Source of the DNA: Candidatus Sulfotelmatobacter sp.
Lineage (GTDB): Bacteria > Eisenbacteria > RBG-16-71-46
DNA: 48,521 nucleotides
NCBI GenBank assembly: GCA_035498555.1
Contig: DATKAB010000085.1
Coordinates: 1 to 48,521, forward strand
Direction: 5' to 3'
Positions 5,121-48,265 of the stretch are shown here, one piece after another. The translations under genes and the position numbers were made by a program. The notes beneath the pieces are model-generated. The model was not told the DNA's origin, did not search any database, and was given only the letters and a program-made list of their open reading frames with translations. Within the stretch, counting starts at the first letter, position 1. Every line of letters starts with the position of its first letter.

Positions 5121-7258
5121 ACCAGACGCGCGCCGGCGCGTCACGGAGCGGGTTGGCGATCGCGACTCTGGCGACGCTCGTGCTGCTGCTCGCACATGCG
5201 TGGCTCTATCGGTTCCTCACCGACGACGCGTTCATTTCATTTCGCTACGCGCGCAATCTGGCTCACGGCCACGGCCTGGTGTTCAATCCCGGGCTCGAGC
5301 GCGTCGAGGGCTTCAGCAACTTGCTGTGGACGCTGCTGCTCGCCGGCCTGGACGCGCTCGGCCTCGCACCCGAACGCGTGGCGATCCCGCTCGGGCTCGG
5401 GTTCACCGTCGCGCTGTGGGCGGTGATCGCCGGGTGGATGGGGCGGCGCTGGAGCGCACGCGATCGACCGCTGGCGCTGGTGCCGCTCCTGTTCCTCGCG
5501 CTCTCCCGCAGCTTCGCCGTTTGGTCGACGAGCGGGCTCGAGACCCGGCTGTTCGAGCTGCTGGCGGTCGCGGGTCTCCTGCGCCTGATCGAGGAGAGCG
5601 AGTCGCTGCTGGGCGGCCGGCCGCCCGGGCCGCCGCTCGCCGCCTGGCTGCTGGGACTCGCTTCGCTCACGCGTCCCGACGGCGCGCTGATCGCGGGCTC
5701 GGCGCTGCTCGCCTCGGCGTGGGTCACGCGGGGACGCGGCCAGCGCTGGCTGCGACGCGCGCTCGGTCGCGCGTGGCCGTGGCTCGCGCTGATGGTCGCG
5801 GTCGAGGCATTCCGCTGGGCCTACTACCACGCCTGGGTGCCGAACACGTATTTCGCCAAGGTCGGCGGGCGGCTGCAGTGGGAGGCCGGACTCGAATACG
5901 TCGCGGCGTTCGCGCTCGAGTACGCCGCATTCCTCTGGCTGCCGTTCCTGATCGCGGGGATCGCCCGACTGACTCGTGCCGGCGAGCGTCCGCTGGTGCT
6001 GATCCTCGCGGCGGCCGCGATTCCCTACGGACTCTACGTGATCGCGATCGGCGGCGATCATTTCGAGTACCGGCCCCTGGACCTCTACTTCCCGCTCGTG
6101 GCGCTCGTGATGGGCGAGGGGCTGCGCGAGTGGTGCGTCACCCGCCGCGGTGCCGCGGCGGCGGTCGTGATGTCGGCCGTGATGCTGGGCGGTCTCACGC
6201 TGCTGCCATGGCGATCCCACCGAGAGTTTCCGCGCGTCTACAGCTCGGGCTTTCCCGGCTATGAGAGCTCGGCCGGTCCCGAGGCCGACCGCTATCTCGA
6301 TCCGAGCGCGAATCCGATCACGCGGCTGCCCCTGGTCCGCGAATGGGCCGCGGCGCATCGGGCGCTGTTGCGCCGCGCGACCGCGCGCTTCGCCGGGGTG
6401 CGCGAGGAGGAGCACGCCCTGTTCCTCGCCCAGATGCGCGAGGAGGGGCTCGCGATCCGGAGGCTCGTCGATCAGGGACGGCTGCCGCACGATGCCTTCA
6501 TCGCCACCGATTGCGTGGGGGCGGTTCCCTATCTCACCGATCTGCCCACGCTCGATCGCCACGGGCTCACCGATGCCCGGGTGGCGCGGCAGGCGTTCCT
6601 CGATCCACGCGTCGCGCACGGCAAGGAGGCGACGCCCGAGTACGCGCGCCGGCGCGGAGTGGACCTGTGGTTCCACGATCCGGCGCGATTGCTGGCGCCG
6701 CTGGCCTCGAGCCGCTTCATGCGCGCCTGGATCGAAGCGCGCGAGGCGCGCGTGCCGGTTTACGCGGCCGATGGCGGCTCGGGCGAGTGGCTGCTGGCGA
6801 TGCTGCCGCGCGGCGCGGACGGGGCGGCGCGGCGCATGCCGCGACTCGCGTTCGTCGCGCTCGCCGATTCATCGGCCTCGGCCCCGATCGGCGAGCAGGC
6901 GATCGACGCCTGGCGGGAAAAGCTCGCCTCCGACTCGACCGACACCGAAGCCTGGGATGCGCTCGGCTATCTCCACGCCTCGCTCGGGCACGCCGAGGAC
7001 GCTCGCGACGACTACCGCGCGCTCACGGTTCGCGAGCCCGGCGACGCCGACGCCTGGATCAACCTCGGCGTGGCCAGCGTGCGGCTCGGCGATTGGCGCG
7101 GCGCGATCGCCGCCCATGAGCGCGCGGCCGCGCTGCTCGAAGCCGCCGGCGAGGCCGGTCGCCTCGAGGAGGTGCGAGCCGAGATCGCCCGGCTCGAGCG
7201 CGGGCCGGACTCAGGTGGGGATTACCGGGCGCGCCGGCCCGCCCCGGCAGAGCCCTGA
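5117..7258 (+). CDS. Polytopic glycosyltransferase-like membrane protein with C-terminal TPRs
   Basis: The 713-residue protein starts at the ATG overlapping the FIST stop; longer readings run into the FIST gene in another frame. The N-terminal half has about ten hydrophobic spans. Just after the first span is DDAFISFRYARNLAHGHG, then ERVEGFSNLLW: the Asp-Asp loop and signature of the AftB/ZomB-like branch of GT-C polyprenyl-phosphate-dependent glycosyltransferases. Residues about 430-620 are a hydrophilic, presumably periplasmic domain. The last 100 residues hold two TPR units (AWDALGYLHASLGHAEDA, AWINLGVASVRLGDWRGA). It probably transfers a sugar from a lipid-linked donor at the periplasmic face; donor and acceptor are unknown. 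Coupling to a FIST sensor is unusual. Confidence 0.8.
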   Translation: MNQTRAGASRSGLAIATLATLVLLLAHAWLYRFLTDDAFISFRYARNLAHGHGLVFNPGLERVEGFSNLLWTLLLAGLDALGLAPERVAIPLGLGFTVALWAVIAGWMGRRWSARDRPLALVPLLFLALSRSFAVWSTSGLETRLFELLAVAGLLRLIEESESLLGGRPPGPPLAAWLLGLASLTRPDGALIAGSALLASAWVTRGRGQRWLRRALGRAWPWLALMVAVEAFRWAYYHAWVPNTYFAKVGGRLQWEAGLEYVAAFALEYAAFLWLPFLIAGIARLTRAGERPLVLILAAAAIPYGLYVIAIGGDHFEYRPLDLYFPLVALVMGEGLREWCVTRRGAAAAVVMSAVMLGGLTLLPWRSHREFPRVYSSGFPGYESSAGPEADRYLDPSANPITRLPLVREWAAAHRALLRRATARFAGVREEEHALFLAQMREEGLAIRRLVDQGRLPHDAFIATDCVGAVPYLTDLPTLDRHGLTDARVARQAFLDPRVAHGKEATPEYARRRGVDLWFHDPARLLAPLASSRFMRAWIEAREARVPVYAADGGSGEWLLAMLPRGADGAARRMPRLAFVALADSSASAPIGEQAIDAWREKLASDSTDTEAWDALGYLHASLGHAEDARDDYRALTVREPGDADAWINLGVASVRLGDWRGAIAAHERAAALLEAAGEAGRLEEVRAEIARLERGPDSGGDYRARRPAPAEP

Positions 7259-7428
7259 GATTCGCGGAATTTTCGAGAGTTTCGAGCCAACAAACGCGGC
7301 CAAGTTCGAGGTTTTCGCGGTCAGCCGATGTGAGAGGCTTTTCCCGCGCGCGAGTCCGCCCGCGCTCGATTCGCACCCCCGCACCCATGGTCCCGCGCCG
7401 CTCGCCTGGATTCCTCGAGGAGGCTGAA

Positions 7429-8295
7429 GTGTTCGCGTCGTCACGACATCCGCGCACCCGCCACGTCCTGCTGCTCCTGCTGTTGATGTTCGCTCTCGTC
7501 GTGGTCGCGCCACGCCCAGGCCATACGCCGGCCGCGCGGGCCGCGGCGGCCATCGGCGCTCACCTGAACGGGCCGGCAGGCATGGCGATGAGCGACGAGG
7601 CGATGCGCCAGATGGTGCTCGACTATTCGGCGTCGCATCCGCAGCACGTCTCGGGCCCCGCGCACCTCGCCAGCCCGCTCGCCGCGCCGGTCGATTCGTT
7701 CACCGCCGTCAACTTCCGGTTCGAGCACGACGGCAACGCCGCCACCCAGGTCGACACCGCCACCATTCAGGCGGGGCAGACCATCCGCTTCAAGTGGGGA
7801 ACGGGGTTCCACACCTGCATCAGCGGCACCGGAAGCAGCGATCCCGACGTGGGCACGGTCTTCAGCCACAATCTCCAGAGCGCCGCCGACAACTTCGACG
7901 TCACCATCGACACGCCTGGCACCTATCCGTTCTTCTGCAGCATTCACGAGTCCTCCGGCATGAAGGGCATCATCGTGGTCAACGCCACGGCGTCGGTGCC
8001 CGCTCCGCGCGCCGCGAACGTGGGCTTCGTCTCACCGCTCGCGCCCAATCCGACCTCGCGCGGAGTCTCATTCCGTATCGCGCTGGCCCAAGCGGGTCAC
8101 GCGCGCGTCGACGTGTTCGACACGCAGGGCCGGCACATCGCGACGCCGCTCGACGGGGAGTTCGCGGCCGGGACCTTCTCGGGCTCGTGGAACGGCCTCG
8201 ACGGGCGCGGCGGCCGGGTGAACGCCGGTGTGTACTCGCTGCGACTGCGCGCGCCGGGCCTCGAACAGACCAGGCAGCTCGTCTACACGCGCTGA
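7429..8295 (+). CDS. Secreted cupredoxin with type IX-like/FlgD-Ig C-terminal domain
   Basis: I start the protein at GTG 7429, five bases after a perfect GAGGAGG (7417-7423); this gives a clean signal peptide (RHPRTRH then an LLLLLLM core). Upstream ATGs at 7330 and 7387 would bury it. The plastocyanin-like domain (about 90-187) keeps all four type-1 copper ligands: His128 in FHT, and Cys170, His173 and Met178 in FFCSIHESSGM. Residues 200-288 form a FlgD-Ig-type C-terminal domain beginning LAPNPTSRG, with the WNGLDGRGGRVNAGVYSL strand pattern typical of type IX-like sorting domains. It likely moves single electrons outside the cell or in the envelope. It is monocistronic, with its own terminator at 8303-8343. 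Confidence 0.9.
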   Translation: MFASSRHPRTRHVLLLLLLMFALVVVAPRPGHTPAARAAAAIGAHLNGPAGMAMSDEAMRQMVLDYSASHPQHVSGPAHLASPLAAPVDSFTAVNFRFEHDGNAATQVDTATIQAGQTIRFKWGTGFHTCISGTGSSDPDVGTVFSHNLQSAADNFDVTIDTPGTYPFFCSIHESSGMKGIIVVNATASVPAPRAANVGFVSPLAPNPTSRGVSFRIALAQAGHARVDVFDTQGRHIATPLDGEFAAGTFSGSWNGLDGRGGRVNAGVYSLRLRAPGLEQTRQLVYTR

Positions 8296-8302
8296 CGCCT
8301 CG

Positions 8303-8343
8303 GGTCCGCGCCCCGCGAGCGTCCCTGCGGGGCGCGGGCCTTT
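8303..8343 (+). terminator. Intrinsic-type terminator after cupredoxin gene
   Basis: A 14-bp inverted repeat (8303-8316 with 8327-8340, one G-T pair) starts eight bases after the cupredoxin stop. The loop is 10 bases, and only three T residues follow. The stem is very strong; the short T-run is typical of GC-rich genomes. Confidence 0.75.
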
Positions 8344-8403
8344 GATGTATTCTCGGGTCGATTCCGGCCTGTGCAGTTCCACGCCACCCGAGAGATTCCG
8401 TCC

Positions 8404-9597
8404 ATGGCTTCCTATCCCGATGTCTTCATCGTGGGCGCCGCGCGCACCCCGATCGGCAAGTTCCTGGGCGGTCTCGCCCCTCTCAAGGCCTCGGACCTCG
8501 GCGCGATCGCCATCCGCGAGGCGATGAGCCGCGCCGGAGTCGGCCGCGACGACGTGGACGAGGTGCTGATGGGCCACGTGGTGCAGGGCGGGCAGGGGCA
8601 GGCGCCCGCGCGCCAGGCGCAGATCAAGGCCGGAATCCATCCGGCGGTCGGCGCCGTGACCATCAACAAGGTCTGCGGCTCGGGACTCAAGGCGGTGATG
8701 ATGGGCGCCCAGGCCATCAAGGCCGGCGATGCCGACTGCATCGTGGCGGGCGGTCAGGAGAGCATGAGCACCGCGCCCCACTACCTGTTCACCGGACGCA
8801 CCGGCATGAAGCTCGGCGACACCTCGCTCAAGGACGGCGTGGTGATGGATGGCCTGTGGTGCTCGTTCAACGACTGCCACATGATCGAGCTCGCCCAGTA
8901 CACCGCCGAGAAAGCGGCGCTGACCCGCGCCGAGATCGACGAGTTCTCGGTGAGGAGCCAGCAGAAGGCGGCGGCCGCCTGGAATTCCTGCCATTTCTCG
9001 AAGGAAGTCGTGCCGGTGTCGATCCCGCAGCGGAAGGGCGATCCGATCGTGATCGCGAAAGACGAATCGATCCGCCCCGAGACCACGCTCGAGGCGCTCT
9101 CCAGGCTGCCCGCGGTCACTCGCGATCGCGGCGGCATGATCACCGCCGGAAACGCGCCGGGCCTCAACGACGGCGGGGCGGCGCTGGTGCTGATGAGCGG
9201 AGCGCGCGTGAAGGAGCGTGGCGCTCGCCCGCTGGCGCGGGTCGTGGCCTACGCGACCGGCGGCGGCGAACCCAGGGATTTGTTCTTTGCCCCGATCGAC
9301 GCGGTGCAGAAGCTCATGAAGAAGATGCAGGTCTCGATCGGCCACTTCGACCTGATCGAAGCCAATGAGGCCTTCGCCGCGCAGGCGGTGGCGGACGGCA
9401 AGGCGCTGGGCTGGGACTGGGACCGCGTCAACGTGAACGGCGGCGCGGTGGCGCTCGGCCATCCGATCGGCGCCTCGGGGGCGCGGGTGCTCGTCACCTT
9501 GTTGCATGCGCTCGAGCGGCTCGACAAGCGGACGGGGCTCGCCACCTTGTGCCTGGGCGGCGGCAACGCCGTGGCGCTGGCGGTCGAGCGGGCCTAG
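8404..9597 (+). CDS. Acetyl-CoA C-acyltransferase (thiolase)
   Basis: This 397-residue biosynthetic/degradative thiolase condenses two acetyl-CoA or cleaves 3-ketoacyl-CoA. The start chosen is ATG 8404 ([18 protein letters not shown]), because the family begins just before the first strand; an in-frame start at 8371 adds 11 unrelated residues. The nucleophilic Cys91 lies in [11 protein letters not shown], the catalytic His in [10 protein letters not shown], and the second Cys in the C-terminal [20 protein letters not shown] is also conserved. It opens a run with the 3-hydroxyacyl-CoA dehydrogenase and two acyl-CoA dehydrogenases, so it probably works in beta-oxidation or acetoacetyl-CoA formation. 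An enoyl-CoA hydratase gene is absent from this cluster. Confidence 0.95.
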
Positions 9598-9602
9598 GCG
9601 CG

Positions 9603-10499
9603 ATGGGAGCCGCCACCGAATGGGCCGCGATCGGCGCCTCGGCCGCGATCCGCAGGGTCGCCGTGGTGGGCGGCGGGACCATGGGCAACGGCATCGCGCA
9701 GGTGTTCGCCACCGCCGGCATCGACGTCGAGCTGGTGGACGCCAAACCGGAGTTCGTGGAACGCGCGCTCGGCACCATCGGCCGGAACCTCGAGCGCGTC
9801 GCGAAGAAGCAGGCCTGGCCAAGCGAGCAGGCGCCCGGAATCCTCAAGCGCATCCGCGGCGGCACCGCGCTCGACGCGGCCAAAGACTGCCCGCTGGTGA
9901 TCGAGGCCGTCAGCGAGAGCTTTCCCTTGAAGAGGCAGATCTTCGAGTCGCTCGATTCGCTGGCGTCGCCGACGGCGATTCTCGCCACCAATACTTCGAG
10001 CATCTCCATCACCGAGATCGCGGCGGTGACGCGCCGCCCCGCGCAGGTGATCGGCATGCACTTCATGAATCCGGTTCCGGTGATGCAGCTGGTGGAGATC
10101 ATTCGCGGACTCGCGACCAGCGACGCGACCTTCGCGACCACCGAGGAGCTGGCGCGGCGGTTGGGCAAGACGCCGGTCGAGGTGCACGACTACCCCGGCT
10201 TCGTCTCGAACCGCATCCTGATGCCGATGATCAACGAAGCCTGCTTCACGCTGATGGAGGGCGTCGCGAGTCGCGAGGCGATCGACACGGTGTTGAAGCT
10301 GGGCATGAATCACCCGATGGGGCCGCTGGCGTTGGCCGACCTCATCGGTCTCGATACCTGTCTCAGCATCATGGAAGTGCTCCATGAGGGTCTGGGCGAC
10401 TCGAAGTACCGACCCTGTCCGCTGCTGCGAAAGATGGTGGCCGCGGGCTGGCTGGGGCGGAAGACGGGACGAGGGTTCTACGAGTATCCGGCCGCCTGA
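9603..10499 (+). CDS. 3-hydroxybutyryl-CoA / 3-hydroxyacyl-CoA dehydrogenase
   Basis: The NAD(H)-dependent enzyme interconverts 3-hydroxyacyl-CoA and 3-ketoacyl-CoA. The 298-residue protein has an N-terminal Rossmann domain with [15 protein letters not shown] and an acidic residue after the second strand for NAD ribose (VELVDAK). The catalytic region shows [11 protein letters not shown] (active-site His and Asn) and [15 protein letters not shown]. The C-terminal helical domain carries [19 protein letters not shown]. Start is ATG 9603, five bases after the thiolase stop; a further in-frame start lies inside the thiolase gene. The N-terminus is about 15 residues longer than in clostridial Hbd. 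It pairs functionally with the thiolase upstream. Confidence 0.95.
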
Positions 10500-10565
10500 C
10501 GCTCGCGCTTCCGGCGCGACGCGCTCGAGTGCGGCGTTCTGGACTCAACCGAGGAGGAAGTGATC

Positions 10566-23487: not shown

Positions 23488-24032
23488 TGCCGATTCGCGC
23501 GGTGCGTCTCTACGGCGATCCGGTGTTGCGCCAGCGCGCCGCCGAGGTCACCGAGTTCGACGGGACGCTGAAGGCCCTGCTCGACGAGATGCGCGAGACC
23601 ATGAAGGCCTACAACGGCGTGGGCCTGGCCGCCAACCAGATCGGCGTCCTGCAGCGCGTCGCGGTCGTGGACGTGCCACGTGAAGACGGGCCGCGCGAGC
23701 GCTACGTGCTGATCAATCCGGTGATCGAATCGCGGTCGGGCACGATCCGGGGCGAAGAGGGTTGCCTCTCGATTCCCGGCATCTGGGAGGACGTGACGCG
23801 CTCGAAGAAGATCCGCGTCAGCGCCCGGAACGAGCAGGGCCAGCCGTTCGAACTCGAGGCGGAAGACTACCTGTCTCGAGCGATTCAACACGAGGTGGAT
23901 CATCTCGACGGGGTGCTGTTCGTGGACCGGCTCTCGGCGCTCAAGCGCCAGTTCCTGCGCCGCCCGCTCGAGGCGCTGGCGCGAGGCGAGCTGCCCGAGG
24001 ACTACAAGCCTCCAGCCGAGATGATGGGATGA
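23487..24032 (+). CDS. def: Peptide deformylase
   Basis: This 181-residue metalloenzyme removes the formyl group from nascent N-terminal fMet. All three motifs are present: GVGLAANQIG (45-54), EEGCLSIPG with metal-ligand Cys93, and QHEVDHLDG with His135, Glu136 and His139. The ATG overlaps the yajC stop. It is followed by fmt, the enzyme that adds the formyl group, as in many bacteria. Confidence 0.97.
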   Translation: MPIRAVRLYGDPVLRQRAAEVTEFDGTLKALLDEMRETMKAYNGVGLAANQIGVLQRVAVVDVPREDGPRERYVLINPVIESRSGTIRGEEGCLSIPGIWEDVTRSKKIRVSARNEQGQPFELEAEDYLSRAIQHEVDHLDGVLFVDRLSALKRQFLRRPLEALARGELPEDYKPPAEMMG

Positions 24033-24042
24033 AAGGCGCTCG

Positions 24043-25008
24043 ATGAACGGTCCGTCGCGGCCGCGCGTGGTGTTCATGGGCACGCCCGAGTTCGCGCTTC
24101 CCGCGCTCGAAGCCGTGGCGCGGATCGCCGACGTGGTCCGGGTGGTGACGCGGCCCGACCGGCCGGCGGGACGAGGCCGAGTGCCGACCGAGTCGCCGGT
24201 GGCACGGCGCGCGACCGAGCTCGGCCTCGACGTCCTGAAGGCCGAGGCTCCGAACTCGACCGCCACGCGCGAAGCGCTCGCCACGTTCGGGCCCGATCTG
24301 TTCGTGGTGGTGGCGTTCGGAGCGATCCTCTCGCCCGAGCTGCTGCGGATTCCGCGCCTCGGCTGCATCAACCTGCACGGGTCGCTGCTGCCGCAGTATC
24401 GCGGCGCTTCGCCGGTGCAGAGCGCGCTGTGGGACGGTTGCCCGGGTACGGGCGTCACCACGCTGTGGATGGACGAAGGAATCGACACCGGCGACTGCAT
24501 TCTGCAGCGCTGGACCCCGATTGAGGCGTCCGACGACGCCGCCAGCCTCGGCGACAAGCTGGCGCGACTCGGCGGCCCGCTGCTCGCCGAGAGCGTGCTG
24601 CTCGCGCACGCCGGACGCGCGCCGCGCCGCCCGCAACCGCGCGAAGGCAGTTACGCTCGGAAGTTGAGGAAGCGCGACGGGCTGATCTCGTGGGGTCAGG
24701 ACGCGGTGACGGTGTGGAATCGCCAGCGCGCCGTGACGCCGTGGCCGGGCGCCACCACGCTCTCCGGCGGCCGTCGGCTCATCGTGACTCGCGCCTGGCC
24801 GCATCATCGGCTGAGCGCCGATGCGCCTCCCGGCACCGTGCTCGCGATCGAGGATACTCGGGTGGCGGTGGCCTGCTCGCCCGGCGTGCTGCTGCTCGAG
24901 CGCGTGCGCCCCGAATCCAAGAACGAAATGGCGGCCGGTGAATGGGCGCGCGGCGCCCGCATCGCTCCCGGCGAACGCCTGACCACCCCCGAGGAGATAC
25001 CCGCGTGA
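24043..25008 (+). CDS. fmt: Methionyl-tRNA formyltransferase
   Basis: This 321-residue enzyme formylates Met-tRNAfMet using 10-formyl-THF. The N-terminal domain has VVFMGTPEFALPALEA, the catalytic NLHGSLLPQYRGASPVQSAL (Asn, His) and DEGIDTGDC with the catalytic Asp. The C-terminal OB-like domain includes AVTPWPGATT. It lies 10 bases after def and overlaps rsmB by GTGA. Confidence 0.97.
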   Translation: MNGPSRPRVVFMGTPEFALPALEAVARIADVVRVVTRPDRPAGRGRVPTESPVARRATELGLDVLKAEAPNSTATREALATFGPDLFVVVAFGAILSPELLRIPRLGCINLHGSLLPQYRGASPVQSALWDGCPGTGVTTLWMDEGIDTGDCILQRWTPIEASDDAASLGDKLARLGGPLLAESVLLAHAGRAPRRPQPREGSYARKLRKRDGLISWGQDAVTVWNRQRAVTPWPGATTLSGGRRLIVTRAWPHHRLSADAPPGTVLAIEDTRVAVACSPGVLLLERVRPESKNEMAAGEWARGARIAPGERLTTPEEIPA

Positions 25009-45424: not shown

Positions 45425-46246
45425 CTACGCCAGGCCCCACTCTTCGAGCTCGTCCTCGTCGAGCCCCAGCAGATGGCCGACCTCGTGCTGCAGCGTGATG
45501 CGAATCTCGCGCGCCAGCTCGTCGCGGTCGGCGCACGAGCGAAGCAGATTGCGGCGGAAGAGATAGATCGCCGGCGGCTCGTCGGGCAGGTCGGAGTGGC
45601 TGCGCTCCATGAGATGCCGGCCCACGAACAGGCCGAGGATGTCCGGCGGCAGCGGCGGAGTGCCGCCGGTGAGCACGTGGCGTTCGGGCAGCGGCTGAAC
45701 CAGCACGCGCACCTCGTGCAGCTCGTTGCGCACTCGCTCGGGGAGCTCGCCGAGCGCCTGCTCGACCAGCTCGTCGAAATCCTCGTCGGAGACCTCGAGC
45801 GCCCCGGGAAAGGACTCGGCGTCGAGATCCTGAGCGGTGGTGGCGTGCACGGCGGACTGCGTCTCGTCGCCAAGGTGTTCGTAGACGCGACTCAGCAGCT
45901 CGTGGGCCTCGGCGAGCGCGGGGTTCACGGTGATCGCGCGCTCGGCGTCGTCGCGGGCCGATTCGAGCTGGACCAGCTCGAAGTGCGCGAGAGCGCGGAG
46001 ATGGAAGAACTGGGCAGGGTCCGCGGAGCGCTCGGCGCCGTGCAGCGCTTCGAGCGCGTCCTGTGGCTCGCCGGCCTCGAGGTGGAGCGCCGCATCGACG
46101 ATGCCCAGGTCGGGGTGACGTCCCCGCTCGTGCTGGAGCCCGGTCAGATCCCGTCGCGCGGAGTCCAGCTCGCCCTTTTCGATCAGGCGCCAGACCTGCT
46201 CGACTCGCTCCCATTCCGATTCGGTCAGGGTCTCAAAAGGGCTCAT
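45425..46246 (-). CDS. TPR protein with C-terminal zincin-type metallopeptidase domain
   Basis: This 273-residue cytoplasmic protein starts at ATG 46246; the frame stays open far upstream but codes nothing recognisable there. Residues 1-140 are three TPR units (LIEKGELDSARRDLTGL, ALHLEAGEPQDALEALHGAE, HELLSRVYEHLGDETQSA). Residues 160-273 match the Zincin_1 (PF06262-like) domain: a helix FDELVEQALGELPERV, PAIYLFRRNLLR, and the zinc motif HEVGHLLGLDEDELEEWGL at the extreme C-terminus. Such proteins are probable proteases; targets are unknown. The gene is convergent with the zinc-ribbon gene. Confidence 0.85.
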   Translation of the reverse strand: MSPFETLTESEWERVEQVWRLIEKGELDSARRDLTGLQHERGRHPDLGIVDAALHLEAGEPQDALEALHGAERSADPAQFFHLRALAHFELVQLESARDDAERAITVNPALAEAHELLSRVYEHLGDETQSAVHATTAQDLDAESFPGALEVSDEDFDELVEQALGELPERVRNELHEVRVLVQPLPERHVLTGGTPPLPPDILGLFVGRHLMERSHSDLPDEPPAIYLFRRNLLRSCADRDELAREIRITLQHEVGHLLGLDEDELEEWGLA

Positions 46247-46753: not shown

Positions 46754-46783
46754 TTGACGATCCAAGCGGTCGGTTCGTACACT
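46754..46783 (+). promoter_or_regulatory. Sigma70-type promoter of the Sec-containing cytochrome gene
   Basis: TTGACG (46754-46759), an 18-base spacer and TACACT (46778-46783) lie 57 bases before ATG 46841. The hexamers and spacer match the tgt promoter, and place the transcription start upstream of the full-length reading, not of the internal ATG 47147. Confidence 0.65.
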
Positions 46784-46840
46784 TCCGGCCGTCCGTAATT
46801 TCCCGTTGTCCCGCGCCTGGTTCGACTCCTCGGAGACTCC

Positions 46841-48265
46841 ATGAAGTCGATGTTCCTCCGCCTGCTGGCGGGCTCCGCGCTCGCCGTCATCGCCTGGATC
46901 CTGGTGGCGGGCGCCGCAGCCCCGTCGAAGACCCACATTCTCGAGCCCGACAAGCTGATCATCCTCTCCACGGTGGACGTGAAGGGGAAGGCCAGCCCGT
47001 GTGGCTGACACACGCCCAAGGGGGGCCTCGCCCGGCGGGCGAGTTTCGCAGACAGCATCCGAGCGAGCTACGGCCAGGTCGCACTGGTCGATGACGGTGG
47101 TTTCTTCCCCGACGACTCGCTGCACATCGACTACACCTGGTTCCTGATGGATGGGATGAAACTGCTCGGCACCGACGCGGTCGGTCTCGCCGACCGCGAC
47201 CTGCGCTTCGGGATTTCGTTCCTCAAGGCGCAGATCAAGCGGACCCAACTGCCGATGGTGTGCGCCAACCTGATCGACAAGAAGACGCGCACCACCGCGA
47301 TCCAGCCCTACCTCATCAAGCAGATCGGGACCGTGAAGGTCGGCTTCTTCGGTCTGATGAGCGACAAGGTGGACCTCGGTCTTTCGCGTGATTCGCTGGC
47401 TGTGGACGAGCCGCAGGCGACCGCCAAGCGCGTGGTGGCCGAGCTGCGCAAGAAGGGCGCGACCGCGGTGGTGTTGCTCTCGCAACTCGGCAAGGTCGAG
47501 AGCGAGGATCTGGTCACGGCGATTGACGGCATCGACGTGGTGATCGTGGGCCGCAACGTTCCGATGCTGCAGAAGGGTCGCCTGATCAAGAGCACGGTGG
47601 CGTGCTACGGCGGCGAGCAGGGCCAGTACATGGGGCGGACGATCCTGACGCTGAATTCGGCGAAGAAGGTGACCTCGGGCGACAACGACGTGTTCGTGCT
47701 CGGTCCCGAGGTGGGCGAGAAGCCCGAGATCGCGACCATCGTCAAGGAGTTCGAGGACAAGTTCAACGAGCGGCTGGCGAAGGCGCAGAAGGAGCAGGCC
47801 GCGAAGCAGCTCGCAAGCGCCAGCCAGGACGCTCCCGATCGTTACGTGGGCAGCGAAGTGTGCCAGCGTTGCCACGTCGCCGAGGGAGAGCAGTGGAAGA
47901 CCACCAAGCATTCGCACGCCTGGCAGACGCTGGTGGACGCCAAGAAGGACGCGACTCCCGATTGCGTGCCCTGCCACGTGGTGGGATACCAGAAGCCGGG
48001 CGGATTCGAATCGGGCGCCGCGACGCCCAAGATGGTGAACGTCGGCTGCGAGAACTGCCACGGGATGGGCTCGCAGCACGAGGCTTTCGCCGCCGTCCCG
48101 CAGAAGGTGACCGAGGCCACGTGCCGCACGTGCCACACGTCGACCAACAGTCCGACCTTCGATTTCGCGACCTACTCGCCGCACATCATGCACAACTTCA
48201 CGGGCACTCTGCCGGTGCTGCCGCCGCATGAGAGCTCCATGATGAAGCCCGCCGCTGGGCACTAG
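46841..48265 (+). CDS. Candidate selenoprotein: exported UshA-like domain fused to tetrahaem cytochrome c (TGA 47006-47008 read as Sec56)
   Basis: ATG 46841 has CGGAG six bases upstream and a promoter behind it. It encodes a signal anchor (FLRLLAGSALAVIAWILVAGAAA) and continues in frame to 48265 with one interruption: TGA at codon 56, in SPCG-U-HTPKGGLARRA. UshA-like metallophosphatase relatives carry, as I recall, PCGC there, so Sec would replace Cys. A hairpin starts 18 bases after the TGA. Residues 45-270 follow the metallophosphatase plan, but expected metal ligands are altered: DVK for DxH, LSQLG for LSHLG, VGRN for GGHxH. Residues 335-440 hold four haem-c sites: CQRCH 341, CVPCH 375, CENCH 403, CRTCH 428. 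It is likely a periplasmic redox protein. Alternative: a nonsense-mutated pseudogene. Full length 474 residues. Confidence 0.78.
47006..47043 (+). promoter_or_regulatory. Candidate bacterial SECIS element
   Basis: The in-frame TGA (47006-47008) is followed by a 7-bp perfect stem, CTCGCCC (47027-47033) with GGGCGAG (47037-47043), closed by a GGC loop. The loop begins 25 nt after the TGA and with G. Bacterial SECIS models require a small G-containing apical loop at roughly 16-37 nt from the UGA, which this meets. Confidence 0.6.

Follow-up and report, generated by a model that had tools for sequence, protein, structure and literature searches.

A probable selenoprotein gene of the UshA-like CxU family with four haem sites in a Candidatus Eisenbacteria genome

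The UshA-like gene at 46841–48265 of the window (the whole stretch of DNA analysed here, 48,521 nt, contig DATKAB010000085.1) very probably, at about 95%, encodes a true selenoprotein of an established family, CxU (NF041198), and is carried by a Candidatus Eisenbacteria genome. This assignment comes from comparison of sequences; the placement in Candidatus Eisenbacteria is given by near relatives found in named genomes. An earlier sequence-only reading of the same DNA had called selenocysteine (Sec) from the raw letters, and this call proved right.

Gene, product and family

The gene lies on the plus strand and comprises 474 codons followed by TAG (48263–48265), starting from the ATG at 46841. 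As the sequence-only reading had stated, one TGA stands in an otherwise intact gene: the TGA of codon 56 is the sole premature in-frame stop, and the remainder of the gene is open. The context of this codon is P-C-G-TGA-H-T-P-K-G-G-L-A-R-R-A, and when the TGA is read as a residue, a product of 474 aa with P-C-G-U is obtained. The start at 47147 that had been foreseen for gene callers is the one in the table-11 ORF list, where the gene appears only as 47147..48265 (372 aa). An annotation truncated in this way would miss the redox motif as well as the predicted signal for export. The predicted export segment and the four haem sites described earlier are likewise supported. The features are listed in Table 1.

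Table 1. Features at and around the UshA-like gene (window positions)
Feature	Position	Strand	Basis
Predicted sigma-70-like promoter, TTGACG-18-TACACT	46754..46783	+	One consensus match; shuffle mean 0.0
GGAGA, likely ribosome-binding site	46832..46836	+	Sequence
UshA-like tetrahaem selenoprotein gene (predicted)	46841..48265	+	NF041198 E=4.7e-81; single TGA; same-family orthologs
Predicted N-terminal hydrophobic export segment, ~residues 1–27	46841..46922	+	Sequence; model helix 2–25
5'-Nucleotidase (UshA/CD73/SoxB) fold domain, ~residues 40–314, few metal ligands left	46958..47782	+	
P-C-G-Sec redox motif (predicted), codons 53–56	46997..47008	+	C-G-U or C-G-C in 42/42 cross-phylum sequences
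TGA codon 56, predicted Sec	47006..47008	+	TGA kept in orthologs; TGC in paralogs
Predicted SECIS hairpin, CTCGCCC-GGC-GGGCGAG	47027..47043	+	19–35 nt downstream of TGA; within bSECIS rules
Cytochrome c554-type haem domain, PF13435, residues 340–408	47858..48064	+	E=2.9e-15
Haem site 1, CQRCH	47861..47875	+	Sequence; C, C, H invariant
Haem site 2, CVPCH	47963..47977	+	Sequence; C, C, H invariant
Haem site 3, CENCH	48047..48061	+	Sequence; C, C, H invariant
Haem site 4, CRTCH	48122..48136	+	Sequence; C, C, H invariant
Multi-copy repeat at contig end	48298..48521	.	At least 5 other copies or part-copies in genome

With Cys written for Sec, the window protein matches NCBIfam NF041198, 'UshA-like (seleno)protein', at E = 4.7e-81 and 272.9 bits, 2 bits under the curated cut-off of 275. 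The match falls in two stretches, the nucleotidase-fold part and the C-terminal part, and the best reaches profile position 518 of 519. Ten relatives score between 239.9 and 293.6 bits (284.0 for the nearest relative), on both sides of the cut-off; therefore, the clade straddles the curated NF041198 threshold. The PCGU/PCGC motif of this family (UshA_like_PCGU) is present in the window protein and in the relatives, whereas the metal-ligand positions are more degraded in the Eisenbacteria clade than in NF041198. UshA-like (seleno)protein family 2 (NF049981), which is listed with a CxxU motif (PMC13188914), shows a weak local similarity to window residues 41–80 (E=0.0057 and 16 bits, where the cut-off is 140, on a profile of 262 positions).

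The sequence-only reading had proposed a 'probable new selenoprotein', and in this point it was mistaken. An ocean survey of 2008 (PMC2398784) listed the family as 'COG0737, UshA-like, CxU' and counted 76 Sec sequences in it. It was reported again in 2022 (PMC9312934), and as 'UshA-like protein, NF041198, CxU' in 2026 (PMC13188914). The window protein does not represent a new selenoprotein family; its family has been catalogued since 2008. As far as could be found, the apparently new points are the phylum Candidatus Eisenbacteria for an UshA-like selenoprotein, the Sec and Cys copies within one genome, an invariant C-G-Sec/Cys in a domain that has lost nearly all of its 5'-nucleotidase metal ligands, and the conserved transsulfuration gene pair downstream. 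The literature search returned no paper treating Eisenbacteria together with selenocysteine, and none combining three among multiheme, SoxB, metallophosphoesterase and selenoprotein.

Fold and metal ligands

A structure model of the window protein was built from an alignment of this protein with the related-loci sequences. The model has a mean pLDDT of 88.8 and shows the 5'-nucleotidase fold. The fold is common to the UshA/CD73 5'-nucleotidases and CpdB (Foldseek E as low as 5e-23; for CpdB, 3jyf, TMt is 0.69), but the window protein is without most of their dinuclear metal ligands and instead has C-G-Sec and haems. A Pfam search with the nucleotidase-fold part alone gave no match. The C-terminal four-haem region resembles cytochrome c554 (PF13435; PDB 1bvb, E=1.2e-15), with the difference that in the window protein the c554-type part is fused to a nucleotidase-fold Sec domain. 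Domain similarity to the SoxB thiosulfohydrolase (TIGR04486) is found at E=3.8e-15, although its 55.2 bits do not reach the cut-off of 550. SoxB is not known to have a haem part.

According to these relationships of fold and sequence to the 5'-nucleotidases and SoxB, the selenoprotein might still be a phosphohydrolase or thiosulfohydrolase of the UshA/SoxB type, in which Sec is structural or regulatory. Some relatives also still have His at two ligand positions. However, most of the UshA ligand set D-x-H, GD, GNHE, H and GHxH is absent from the window protein. In the comparison with the Thermus 5'-nucleotidase 2z1a, the motif I His, the motif II Asp, the motif III Asn-His, the motif IV His and both GHxH His are replaced, and D46 alone is left. 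We therefore regard a hydrolase as unlikely. The UshA-type chemistry that the sequence-only reading implied is doubtful, because most of the UshA metal ligands are missing.

While the metal ligands vary, C54, G55 and Sec/Cys56 do not change in any of 42 sequences from several phyla. This set was found partly by patterns that cover residues close to the motif, so that conservation in this part is favoured. The invariance of the motif, the ligand loss, the four haem sites, themselves invariant, and the presence of a cytochrome c assembly protein in the window's genome argue for a redox enzyme and not a hydrolase. The protein is probably exported and would be an enzyme of sulfur or thiol redox chemistry.

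Reading of codon 56

Four independent lines of evidence, namely the orthologs, the Cys copies, the Sec machinery and the RNA, indicate Sec. Of 19 same-family genomes, 18 have the identical single TGA; the other has a partial copy that lies at a contig end and begins past codon 56. Because of this recurrence, the TGA is not a chance event. Many class-level relatives and also loci of other phyla have TGA at codon 56. An automatic motif match over 80 cross-phylum loci gave U at position 56 in 44 and C in 25. In an alignment of 31 proteins, P53, C54, G55, position 56, G61, G62, R65, R66 and A67 are invariant. In one relative, at 8001–9338 of DHHN01000013.1 (L142), the motif reads A-G-TGA, its first Cys being Ala, so that Sec stands without a partner Cys.

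Cys homologs aligned at the TGA position are found both as PCGC paralogs and as cross-phylum homologs. The sequence-only reading had placed the TGA at a Cys of relatives, and the PCGC...GGLARRA sequence that it named exists in the Cys paralogs. Sec-bearing genomes hold tandem or sister Cys copies with TGC at codon 56: these are tandem in G013, G018, G003 and G011, located elsewhere in G001, and also present in G020. No Cys copy occurs in the genome of the window itself, where the one other match is weak.

All four components named in the sequence-only reading, selA to selD, are present in the window's genome, each over its cut-off: tRNA-Sec with the UCA anticodon (66.8 bits), selB (338.6 bits), selA (539.9 bits) and selD (354.1 bits). 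In addition, selA is found in 17 of the 19 same-family relatives. The genes selC and selD are adjacent (L001/L016, G000:C81, about 23785–24978). selD has its own in-frame TGA (CAG-TGA-ASK), followed by a SECIS-like hairpin that is built like that of the UshA-like gene, with an 8-bp stem and the loop GGG, and is itself a predicted selenoprotein.

The predicted SECIS hairpin of the UshA-like gene has a 7-bp stem, a 3-nt loop GGC, a TGA-to-loop distance of 25 nt and an energy of -12.5 kcal/mol. These values are within the published bSECIS rules, which give a loop of 3–9 nt, a stem of 4–16 bp, G in the first two loop positions, a distance of 16–37 nt from the UGA and an MFE <= -7.5 (PMC13188914). 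The folding energy does not set the whole 45-nt stretch apart from shuffles (z = -0.84) or from synonymous recoding (z = -0.62). This energy is weak evidence for a SECIS, because a GC-rich coding stretch folds regardless; therefore, the case for the hairpin rests on synonymous compensation. In the near-family Sec genes, codons 64–66 are GCC CGG CGG in all, and the third base of codon 63 pairs with that of codon 67: Leu CTC occurs with Ala GCG and CTG with GCC, both changes being synonymous. This wobble-wobble pair is present in 52 of 63 distinct Sec genes, where 10,000 permutations gave a mean of 27.9 and a maximum of 42, whereas the Cys genes show it in 7 of 24 against 7.3 expected. The inner five pairs of the hairpin are complete in 49/63 Sec genes and in 2/24 Cys genes. 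On the tree, at least 3 compensatory changes are placed within the family and 8 across all Sec genes, with none in the opposite sense. A sign test on the independent changes gives p = 0.125, the pairs being too few for power. The Cys-Gly-Sec motif proposed earlier is supported.

If the TGA were a true stop, the gene would be a decaying pseudogene or would be translated only from 47147, where standard gene calling starts. No further premature stop is found in the same-family copies, although in G014 the gene is split in two, as a pseudogene might be. In this ortholog (L038, G014:C194, 7902–9222, minus strand) the pieces cover query 1–276 and 303–455, by a frameshift or an assembly error. Against a true stop, the same-family copies share the same TGA, P-C-G-x and GG-xx-RRA are invariant upstream of 47147, paralogs have Cys at codon 56, and the hairpin shows synonymous compensation. 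A true stop is thus very improbable. A sequencing error from TGC or TGT, conceivable with TGA one base from the Cys codons and with errors contained in metagenome assemblies, is negligible against a TGA repeated in many independently assembled genomes, and genome-wide reassignment of TGA, for example to Trp, would also fit read-through in this gene but is just as negligible, as the TGA aligns with Cys, not Trp, and the Sec machinery is found in the genome.

Neighbouring genes and proposed function

Directly downstream of the UshA-like gene, on the same strand, cystathionine beta-synthase (TIGR01137, 518.7 bits, over the cut-off) is found in 11 same-family genomes, in G020 of another family and at locus L089. 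Where the contig reaches, it is followed by cystathionine gamma-synthase/lyase. The first intergenic gap in G020 is ~30 bases. Only homology-supported transsulfuration genes were counted here, because antisense ORFs confounded the all-frames clustering. The UshA-like gene has different neighbours in other phyla. At 6832–10500 of JAUIHP010000002.1 (L106), a tandem UshA-like pair is directly followed by a cystathionine gamma-lyase-like gene. Upstream in the window, a TPR-repeat protein gene (45473–46213, minus strand) is a conserved neighbour in the family, and its ortholog in L052 has in addition a C-terminal Zincin_1 metallopeptidase domain (PF06262).

In the window's genome, the transsulfuration pair is located on another contig, C166, starting at base 256. 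The repeat at the end of the window occurs at 100% in C83 and at 86–98% in C23, C32, C81 and C216. The window contig end and the C166 start resemble each other, and both edges carry GGTC(C/A)TGCTCCGAAGATTG. Since the repeat is multi-copy and this sequence is shared by both edges, a mobile repeat may lie between the UshA-like gene and the transsulfuration genes. These neighbours and the similarity to SoxB suggest a link to sulfur metabolism, but the neighbours may also be housekeeping genes.

In the proposed mechanism, the downstream hairpin would direct SelB and Sec-tRNA to insert Sec at UGA codon 56. The product would be exported and would present a nucleotidase-fold domain with the Cys-Gly-Sec pair, followed by the four-haem cytochrome c554-type domain. 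The selenol/thiol pair would carry out two-electron thiol or sulfur chemistry, with either a protein disulfide or a small sulfur compound as its target. The electrons would then be relayed one at a time by the haems. We consider this division of work between the selenol/thiol pair and the haems the likeliest mechanism, with somewhat better than even confidence. Sec insertion, motif conservation, haem sites and ligand loss are the steps supported by comparison; we infer the export, the electron path and the substrate. A wider proposal is tentative and rather doubtful as a whole: the UshA-like family, at least in Eisenbacteria, may be an exported selenol-haem sulfur enzyme built on a dead metallophosphoesterase. 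Its partners in the exchange of sulfide, persulfide or thiols would be cystathionine beta-synthase and gamma-lyase, and the neighbouring Sec and Cys copies may be retained for different conditions.

The remaining interest is in the leads to mechanism and in the job of this protein, not in the existence of the selenoprotein. Leads to the function of the UshA-like family come from its conserved transsulfuration neighbours, from the metal ligands that it has lost and from the Sec and Cys copies in tandem.
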